NCBI RefSeq assembly: GCF_026967925.1
Contig: NZ_JAPVBI010000002.1
Span: forward strand, 1,169,628 to 1,233,627
Source: Modestobacter sp. VKM Ac-2985
GTDB taxonomy: Bacteria > Actinomycetota > Actinomycetes > Mycobacteriales > Geodermatophilaceae
Direction: 5' to 3'
DNA: 64,000 nucleotides
The translations under genes were made by a program, and so were the position numbers. Below, one piece after another: positions 5,345 to 7,240 of the stretch (position 1 is its first letter; each line of letters begins with the position of its first letter). Under the pieces are notes generated by a model. It saw nothing but the letters and a program-made list of their open reading frames with translations, searched no databases and was not told the origin of the DNA.

Positions 5345-5824
5345 TCAGGCGCGGGCGATCGGGGCGGTCCGGGCCCGGGTCAGCCGCACCAGGTCCGCCG
5401 GCGACAGCTCCACCTGCAGCCCGCGCCGACCCGCGCTGACCAGCACGGTCGGGAAGGTCAGGGCGCTGTCGTCCACCACGGTCGGCAGCGCCTTGCGCTG
5501 GCCCAGCGGGCTGATCCCGCCCCGGACGTAGCCGCTGCTCCGCTCGGCGTCGGCCGGTTCGGCCATGGTGGCCTTCCGGCCGCCCGCGGCGGCGGCCAGC
5601 GCCTTGAGGTCCAGCTGGCCGCTGACCGGCACGACGGCGACGGTGAGCGCACCGTCGACCCGGGCGACCAGGGTCTTGAACACCTGGGCCGGATCGGCGC
5701 CCAGGGCGGCCACCGCCACCTCGCCGTAGCCGTGTCCGTCCGCGCCGTCGGCCGGGTCGTACTCGTGCAGGGAGTAGGCGGCCCGCGCCTCGTCCAGGGT
5801 CCGCACCGCCGGTGTCGCCGCCAC
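5345..5824 (-). CDS. ybaK: YbaK/EbsC-type aminoacyl-tRNA deacylase (Cys-tRNA(Pro) class)
   Basis: About 159 aa from GTG 5824 ([12 protein letters not shown]), the usual YbaK length. The YbaK family hydrolyses mischarged Cys-tRNA(Pro) in trans. Family features: the catalytic Lys in VFKTLVA, the [15 protein letters not shown] strand-helix segment and the [12 protein letters not shown] loop. It converges with the preceding gene (3 bp between stops) and is divergent from sigR, so the interval upstream of its start carries the sigR promoters. Confidence 0.9.
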
Positions 5825-5888: not shown

Positions 5889-5916
5889 GGGAATCGAGCC
5901 CGGGTGCGTGCCGTTG
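5889..5916 (+). promoter_or_regulatory. SigR-type promoter (GGGAAT-N18-GTTG) upstream of sigR
   Basis: GGGAAT at 5889-5894 and GTTG at 5913-5916 are separated by exactly 18 nt, matching the GGAAT-N18-GTT consensus of Streptomyces SigR / mycobacterial SigH promoters. It drives into sigR, so positive autoregulation is the natural reading. Transcription should begin around 5922-5925. GTG 5925, in frame with sigR, lies exactly there. Confidence 0.85.
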
Positions 5917-6015
5917 CACCGACCGTGAGCAGCACAGTCTCGGGCGCCCCGGCGCGCATCGCGCGCGGTCCCGCGCCCGCCCGCCGTCCCCCCGGCCGTC
6001 CCGGCCGCACCCGGC

Positions 6016-6021
6016 TAGGAT
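6016..6021 (+). promoter_or_regulatory. Second sigR promoter, housekeeping-type -10 (TAGGAT)
   Basis: TAGGAT fits TANNNT and lies 8 nt before an in-frame GTG at 6030. It could supply basal sigR transcription, complementing the stress-induced SigR promoter about 110 bp upstream. No clear -35 is visible. Confidence 0.5.
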
Positions 6022-6068
6022 CGAGCGACGTGGTCGCCCGCTCCCGGGCGCCGCAGAGAGGACGGTCG

Positions 6069-6761
6069 GTGCCCGAGGAGCCCGCGAGCGACAGCCCCGT
6101 CGTCGAGACGGGGAAGCCCGATGAGACGCCGGAGGCGCGCGCCGACGGCAGTCGTGCCGAGCTCGCCGAGACCCGGGCCCAGCGCGACGCCCGCTTCGAG
6201 CGCGACGCCCTGCCCTACCTGGACCAGCTGTACCCGGCGGCGCTGCGGATGACCCGCAACCCCGCCGACGCCGAGGACCTGGTGCAGGAGACCTTCGTCA
6301 AGGCGTACTCCGCCTTCCACCAGTTCGCCGAGGGGACCAACCTCAAGGCGTGGCTGTACCGGATCCTCACCAACACCTACATCAACAGCTACCGCAAGAA
6401 GCAGCGCCAGCCGCAGCAGTACCCCACCGAGCAGGTGCAGGACTGGCAGCTGTACGCCGCCGAGGAGCACACCTCCAGCGGCCTGCGCTCCGCGGAGATG
6501 GAGGCGCTGGACCACCTGCCGGACACCGACATCAAGGACGCGCTGCAGCAGCTGCCGGAGGACTTCCGGCTCGCGGTGTACCTGGCCGACGTCGAGGGGT
6601 TCGCCTACAAGGAGATCGCCGAGATTATGGGCACGCCCATCGGCACGGTGATGTCCCGCCTGCACCGCGGTCGGCGCGGACTGCAGAAGCTGTTGGCCGA
6701 CTACGCCCGGGAACGCGGCTTCGTCGCGGCCGGAGCTGCTGAGGAGGCGACCCGCTCATGA
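6069..6761 (+). CDS. sigR: ECF RNA polymerase sigma factor SigR (thiol-oxidative stress)
   Basis: About 230 aa from GTG 6069, preceded by AGAGAGGA at a suitable distance. Region 2 is visible as [24 protein letters not shown] and WLYRILTN; region 4 as [11 protein letters not shown], the [11 protein letters not shown] helix and [11 protein letters not shown]. The family directs transcription of thioredoxin and other thiol-homeostasis genes when RsrA releases it. rsrA overlaps its stop (ATGA), a typical translational-coupling arrangement. The frame stays open upstream: GTG 6030 and GTG 5925 are also in frame and each lies just after a promoter, giving possible proteins of about 243 and 278 aa. 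No structural gene of the regulon is adjacent. Confidence 0.95.
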
Positions 6762-7141
6762 GCACCGACGCTCACGACGGCGCTCGGCACGACCTCCACG
6801 GTGACGACGTCACCTCCTGCGACGACGTGCTCTCCCACGTCTTCGAGTTCCTCGACCACGAGACCGATGACGCCCGCCGGGCGGTCATCGCCGAGCACCT
6901 CGAGGACTGCTCGCCGTGCCTGCGTCAGTTCGGCATCGAGCAGGAGTTCAAGGCGCTGGTGCGCCGGCGCTGCGGCGGTGACCCCACGCCGATGGGCCTG
7001 CGGGACCGGATCAAGGTGCAGCTGACGAGCGTCTCCTTCGAGGAGGACGGCACGCAGGTGCGCGTGGAGAAGGCCAGCATCGAGTCGAGCACGATCCGGG
7101 TGCACGGCGACCAGCCGCCGGGGGAGCGCCCCACCACCTAG
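6758..7141 (+). CDS. rsrA: Zinc-binding anti-sigma factor RsrA
   Basis: 127 aa, starting at the ATG that overlaps the sigR stop. It carries the ZAS-family HxxxCxxC motif (HLEDCSPC) plus an upstream Cys in VTSCDDV. In the family these bind zinc under reducing conditions; disulfide formation releases the sigma factor. The C-terminal ~30 residues are acidic/polar and poorly conserved. It is the last gene of the sigR operon and converges with the tiny ribosomal-protein gene, with only 24 bp between stops. Confidence 0.95.
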
Positions 7142-7165: not shown

Positions 7166-7240
7166 TCAGGCGTTGGGGCGCTTGCCGTGGTTGGCGCCGC
7201 TCTTCTTGCGGGCGCGCCGCTTGCGTCCACGCTTGGACAT
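7166..7240 (-). CDS. Ribosomal small basic protein, bL37 type (24 aa)
   Basis: A 24-residue Lys/Arg-rich protein beginning MSKRGRKRRARKK and ending NHGKRPNA. It matches my memory of the actinobacterial 50S protein bL37 described from mycobacterial ribosome structures, which has the same length and NHGKRPN tail. A strong AGGAGGGG Shine-Dalgarno lies 6 nt before ATG 7240. The gene is too short for most gene finders. It is encoded opposite the end of the sigR-rsrA transcript, and a perfect 9-bp hairpin (7264-7286) sits in its leader just upstream of the ribosome site. Confidence 0.8.
   Translation of the reverse strand: MSKRGRKRRARKKSGANHGKRPNA

Follow-up and report, generated by a model that had tools for sequence, protein, structure and literature searches.

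Results

The window, a 64,000-nucleotide stretch of the genome of Modestobacter sp. VKM Ac-2985 (Geodermatophilaceae), holds sigR, immediately followed by rsrA, the gene of a zinc anti-sigma factor, whose ATG at 6758 overlaps the sigR stop codon (ATGA; sigR ends at 6761). Upstream, the intergenic region ends at a divergent Cys-tRNA(Pro) deacylase gene (Table 1). Just 3' of rsrA, a 24-codon open reading frame on the minus strand (7166-7240) encodes bL37, a tiny ribosomal protein (NF047428, E 4.4e-14, above cut-off).

Table 1. Genes and predicted control elements around sigR in Modestobacter sp. VKM Ac-2985 (window coordinates)
Feature	Position	Strand	Basis
Cys-tRNA(Pro) deacylase gene, YbaK type, divergent; bounds the upstream intergenic region	5348-5824	-	TIGR00011, E 1.9e-51
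Putative sigma-R-type promoter p2: GGGAAT (5889-5894), 18 nt, GTTG (5913-5916)	5889-5916	+	sequence; conserved in family
GTG, candidate long-isoform start at which a leaderless mRNA is predicted to begin; 12 nt past the first G of GTTG	5925-5927	+	spacing conserved in family
48-codon N-terminal extension, SigR-prime type (MSSTV...RRPPGRP...)	5925-6068	+	open frame, lengths, pN/pS
Housekeeping-type -10 TAGGAT of putative promoter p1, inside the extension	6016-6021	+	near-fixed codons CTA GGA TCG
GTG in frame, 8 nt past TAGGAT; possible leaderless start for p1, partly conserved	6030-6032	+	sequence
Shine-Dalgarno-like AGAGAGG (6055-6061), 7 nt, GTG 6069 as short SigR start	6055-6071	+	sequence; family conservation
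sigR short form, 230 aa, ECF sigma factor, SigH_actino family	6069-6761	+	TIGR02947, E 1.5e-108, above cut-off
rsrA, anti-sigma factor	6758-7141	+	TIGR03988, E 9e-26

The original prediction had placed a SigR-type promoter ahead of an in-frame GTG, from which a leaderless mRNA would be translated into a longer SigR. Its promoter, p2, held base for base, and GTG 5925 is indeed in frame with GTG 6069, 144 nt or 48 codons further on, with no stop codon between them. Directly 5' of GTG 5925 lie the -10 and its spacer, and a Shine-Dalgarno sequence is not visible. Another GTG that is in frame in this strain, at 5904, was rejected as a start: it lies inside the promoter and is consequently not expected in the transcript. 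By its sequence and its conservation, p2 is a putative autoregulatory sigma-R promoter of sigR.

Across the 4.7-Mb genome, exact GGGAAY-N18/19-GTTG sites numbered 15, versus none for the reversed control pattern, so the p2 motif is both specific and rare. The nearest downstream open reading frames were scanned for 10 of these sites. Among them were trxB and cysD, both above curated cut-offs, as well as pieces of rpoB, a PknB-like kinase gene and a Clp ATPase gene, which were truncated at the ends of the loci and fell below cut-offs; no family could be assigned downstream of three of the 10. The matches upstream of rpoB (L220) and of the PknB-like kinase gene (L217) are exact. Sigma-R-type sites also precede candidate starts of clpX (TIGR00382) and of the Clp ATPase gene, whose product has Pfam Clp_N and AAA domains and whose best NCBIfam matches, ClpB and ClpA, were both below cut-off; its N-terminus suggests that this gene may be clpC. 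For the clpP pair of this genome, no match to the promoter pattern turned up in the 1,500 nt upstream. At trxB (L218, C2:221915-221942, minus strand), a GTG stands at the identical +12 spacing from its sigma-R promoter, and trxB thus also appears to be read without a leader. A 29-residue N-terminal stretch precedes the TIGR01292 match of the trxB product.

We found sigR in 106 of 112 Geodermatophilaceae genomes, including all 96 of those with completeness of 90% or more and contamination of 5% or less, and took one locus per genome; three of the 106 loci (L013, L015, L112) came without upstream DNA. The strict promoter form GGGAA[TC]-N17-19-GTT was present in 86 of the 106 loci, and nine loci of one genus carry GCTG or CTTG as the -10, so that p2 may be weak there. 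When any -10 was allowed and both frame and openness were required, an in-frame, open ATG or GTG followed the -35 by 29-32 nt in all 103 loci that had upstream DNA, and by 30-31 nt in 101 of them. The 86 strict-promoter loci have a GTG 12 nt (85 loci) or 13 nt (one locus) after the first G of GTT, and although these were not filtered for frame, that GTG is in frame and open to the sigR core in every one. At local composition, the chance of an ATG or GTG at one given position is 0.017. The predicted leaderless start is therefore supported by a near-constant spacing in all evaluable loci of the family and by trxB, and the layout is kept across a family other than that of Streptomyces, as had been proposed.

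Conservation starts abruptly at GTG 5925: in an ungapped comparison of 18 Modestobacter loci, the DNA upstream of the promoter was as diverse as unrelated sequence (∼0.6). The first 12 nt of the frame (5925-5936) are invariant at every codon position in these loci, which exceeds what protein conservation would need and perhaps reflects a requirement of leaderless initiation.

At local composition, 48 open codons have a probability of 0.65, and the open frame of this single sequence is by itself not beyond chance; it is the comparison among relatives that makes the layout far more than chance. Extensions in the 86 strict-promoter loci measure 43 (47 loci), 44 (16), 47 (2) or 48 codons (21), all lengths being multiples of three, and the frequent stops or frameshifts that would speak against a translated extension were absent. 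Selection on the extension was assessed from pN/pS in the region between the first codons and p1, a part that leaves out the three initial codons, p1 itself and the ribosome site. The synonymous bias sought in the original prediction was found: in-frame pN/pS was 0.41 in 18 Modestobacter loci, 0.41 in 36 loci with 43 codons and 0.42 in 14 loci with 44 codons, versus 1.65/1.49, 1.12/2.11 and 2.51/1.34 in the shifted frames of the same groups. These counts cover 68 of the 75 extensions measured among the 86 loci (seven of other lengths or genera were left out) and are pairwise, hence not phylogenetically independent. In two groups (first 14 loci each), column shuffles reached the observed pN/pS in one of 300 and none of 300 runs. 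Mature SigR is far more constrained, with pN/pS of 0.03-0.07, so that selection on the extension is real but modest. Stops interrupted the +1 frame in 75 of 75 extensions and the +2 frame in eight of 75, the former count being partly trivial because GTGAGC itself contains TGA.

An RPPG-type motif was present in 96 of 103 family loci, and within RRPPGRP the amino acids are kept while synonymous codons vary. Among 29 aligned long proteins, pair identity was 0.71 in the extension (6% gaps) versus 0.41 in residues 51-68 (24% gaps). These residues of the long form (∼6075-6128) are the N-terminal tail of short SigR, a hypervariable segment with many indels flanked by conserved segments. As a positive control, we analyzed Streptomyces-type extensions (20 and 6 distinct sequences, from 32 loci found by motif), which gave in-frame pN/pS of 0.74 and 0.63 versus 0.99-1.66 in shifted frames; one of the loci examined, L162, reproduces the published Streptomyces extension length of 58 residues (PMC5472188, available part). 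On this comparative evidence, the in-frame extension carries the coding signature expected of a SigR/SigR-prime system, and we regard it as a conserved reading frame that starts at the predicted transcript end.

At the short start, the Shine-Dalgarno sequence proposed for GTG 6069 was confirmed. The pattern [AG]GAGAGGA[CT]GGNNNGTG is present there in 86 of 86 strict-promoter loci, all of whose extensions end at a GTG behind [AG]GAGAGG.

Judged by its -10, a housekeeping-type promoter, p1, would lie between the long and the short start. In 96 family loci aligned on RPPG, the codons CTA GGA TCG over this -10 are almost fixed as nucleotides. Here the predicted layout of TAGGAT, 8 nt and an in-frame GTG at 6030 was found as described, but the GTG itself proved only partly conserved: of 105 hexamers in the family, 77 were followed at 8 nt by an in-frame ATG or GTG, and in two genera many loci have GCG at the position. 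GTG 6030 consequently looks dispensable beside GTG 6069, which is led by a ribosome site.

The comparison was extended to 104 loci from 34 other families of the class, of which 75 loci were picked among the matches listed and 26 belong to a single family (f30). A sigma-R-type promoter was detected in 96 of them (31 families), and eight had no match. Among the 96, in-frame ATG or GTG codons numbered five at +11, 15 at +12 and four at +13, with three out of frame in total, and these 24 starts span 19 of the 31 promoter-bearing families; the other 12 families had none among the sampled loci. At +10 the ratio was reversed, with 15 ATG or GTG codons out of frame (10 of them in f30) versus one in frame. 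From p2 to the sigR core, the sigR frame was open in 83 of 96 loci versus 25 and eight for the other frames. Leaderless starts at a sigma-R promoter are thus predicted to occur in other actinomycete families as well, beyond what had been proposed.

Of 80 named loci, 37 were examined for starts at +11 to +13, which were present in seven of seven Geodermatophilaceae and nine of 30 others, including three Nocardioides, Cellulomonas, Nonomuraea, Lentzea and Sciscionella. Among the same 37, such starts were absent from the Streptomyces, Micromonospora, Actinomadura and Rhodococcus loci.

TANNNT hexamers within the non-family extensions favored one codon register (97 versus 9 and 9), which was represented in all 34 families, and the valine of a frequent VSS was encoded by GTA in 37 of 40 cases versus 13 of 632 valine codons in the core. 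We read this register and codon bias as the mark of a putative -10 written into codons. An in-frame ATG or GTG followed at a gap of 8 nt in 36 of 115 hexamers (15 families), none was in frame at a gap of 7 or 9, and ten were in frame at a gap of 5; if the short form starts at the gap-8 codon, the fixed register is trivial there. Both promoters have a predicted leaderless start in 12 of the 104 loci (nine families), p2 only in 12, p1 only in 24 and neither in 56. Within Geodermatophilaceae, 66 of 94 loci with a predicted leaderless p2 start have one at p1 too.

The motif [DE]RP occurs within the first 14 residues of six of the 24 leaderless non-family extensions (L149, L181, L193, L199, L202, L203). 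The sequence V[NQ][AS]LTL[DE]RP is seen in L271, L289 and L307, all three from Nocardioides. It is possible that [DE]RP acts as a degron. An N-terminal degron motif common to the whole class was considered and dropped, since six of 24 extensions do not warrant a class-wide claim.

Discussion

Our analysis indicates that a pair of nested promoters drives sigR of Modestobacter and that each of them provides a different N-terminus, such that p2 would yield a leaderless long form and p1 a short form, a reading to which we assign a probability of roughly 80%. Positions 5925-6068 very probably encode the N-terminal part of a SigR-prime-type isoform, translated from a stress transcript that has no leader; we infer the transcription start at p2, the leaderless translation and the stress induction from sequence comparison.

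The two-isoform SigR/SigR-prime principle is already known, and the Modestobacter case is a leaderless variant of that switch. A 2009 paper by Kim et al. speaks of actinomycetes in its title. Modestobacter shares with Streptomyces coelicolor the sigR-rsrA operon and gene family, the order of p2 upstream of p1 and the in-frame N-terminal extension, which is 55 or 58 residues long in S. coelicolor (available parts of PMC4921905 and PMC5472188) and 48 in Modestobacter. According to the available parts of the same sources, S. coelicolor SigR-prime has a half-life of ∼10 min (PMC4921905) and is a Clp substrate (PMC5472188).

The two versions differ in their starts. In six of 10 Streptomyces-type loci, no in-frame start comes before an ATG lying 51-63 nt past the promoter, while in the other four a GTG or TTG at +8 to +17 precedes that ATG. 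Modestobacter has no such distant long start but a GTG at +12, predicted to be leaderless. We regard the distant start as belonging to the Streptomyces form and not to the two-isoform principle. Nor does Modestobacter begin its short form at GTC, as Streptomyces does, but at GTG 6069 behind AGAGAGG; the available part of PMC5472188 reports GTC use to be without evidence in other actinobacterial genera. By eye, apart from the codons over the p1 -10 and perhaps an initial M-[SG]-S-T, the extension has no overall similarity to that of Streptomyces.

In mycobacteria and corynebacteria, the orthologous sigma/anti-sigma pair is SigH-RshA. Mycobacterium tuberculosis sigH has a downstream p1 and an upstream p2 recognizable by SigH (PMC4921905, available part), and Corynebacterium glutamicum sigH has three mapped start points with SigA-type -10 hexamers (PMC3489674, available part), so that a p2 isoform is not expected in the latter. 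The named loci of Rhodococcus (two), Aldersonia and Nocardia had no start at +11 to +13, the Nocardia locus having an ATG at +10. In mycobacteria, a GTG or ATG suffices for a leaderless start and 24% of M. smegmatis transcripts are leaderless (PMC6448022, available part). Mycobacterial leaderless translation is a general mode of expression, whereas in Modestobacter sigR it would tie promoter choice to the N-terminus.

We propose that, once RsrA is oxidized, released sigma-R would transcribe sigR from p2, and that the transcript would begin at GTG 5925, so that ribosomes would start on that codon of a leaderless mRNA. The product would be a 278-residue SigR-prime, with 48 residues added to the 230-residue SigR. 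Since p1 lies inside the extension, its transcript would lack the long start codon and give shorter forms only, namely short SigR, started at GTG 6069 behind its Shine-Dalgarno-like sequence, and possibly, in most relatives, a form 13 residues longer that begins at the position of GTG 6030. Because each promoter carries its own start, the choice of sigma factor would set the N-terminus, and no separate ribosome site would be needed. Analogy with Streptomyces suggests that the long form is probably a transient amplifier that Clp proteases remove. Against this counts the lack of a sigma-R-type site in the 1,500 nt upstream of the clpP pair, given that the Clp proteases in the published loop belong to the SigR regulon.

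The presence of the GTG 6069 ribosome site on the p2 mRNA also counts against a distinct role for the long form, because this mRNA could yield mostly short SigR. With that site kept in all strict-promoter loci of the family, the extension might be translated mainly to couple ribosomes into GTG 6069, or as a by-product, giving mostly short protein and a long form with no separate fate. We consider this unlikely, as the amino-acid conservation of the RRPPGRP type exceeds what simple read-through would need and the extension frame is fused, stop-free, to sigR. It is quite improbable that the p2 transcript instead has a leader, starting upstream of 5925, or that translation begins at another in-frame codon. 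The upstream GTG 5904 of this strain and the more downstream start in Streptomyces could be taken that way, but GTG 5904 is promoter DNA, no ribosome site is visible ahead of 5925, and the spacing that is near-constant in the family peaks at +12 in other families too. Finally, we rejected as very improbable that the frame is an accident of high G+C content and that 5925-6068 is not translated, being a plain leader kept for the p1 promoter and ribosome site it holds: a single sequence would be open with 65% chance and those two elements are constrained as nucleotides, but with them excluded pN/pS stays at ∼0.41 in three groups and exceeds 1 in shifted frames, the frame is open in 86 of 86 loci with lengths in multiples of three, and RRPPGRP is constant in amino acids and variable in codons.

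Returning to two nested promoters with their own starts, the pair might be the ancestral form of actinomycete sigR control and the Streptomyces version derived from it. This suggestion is tentative and, in our estimate, somewhat short of even odds: the doubly leaderless loci within and outside the family argue for it, and the 56 of 104 non-family loci with neither start tell against it. If it is true, the initiating sigma factor would fix the N-terminus, and perhaps the lifetime, of the sigma factor that is made.

Among the matches listed in the open literature, none had a title dealing with SigR of Geodermatophilaceae or with a leaderless isoform of SigR. As far as the literature searched shows, the following are new: the leaderless form, its family-wide spacing, the selection measured for the extension and, in other families, the nested pair of leaderless starts. 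The prediction is precise, placing the 5' end of the p2 transcript at GTG 5925. Our results suggest that sigR and sigH annotations giving the short protein alone may miss a conserved part of the gene product.

Streptomyces tunes its thiol-stress response by means of a short-lived long isoform of a sigma factor. A SigR long-isoform device with a simpler start appears to be conserved among the desert and rock actinomycetes of a distant family, probably also in further families of the class, and it illustrates how promoter choice could be coupled to protein identity without an additional regulator.
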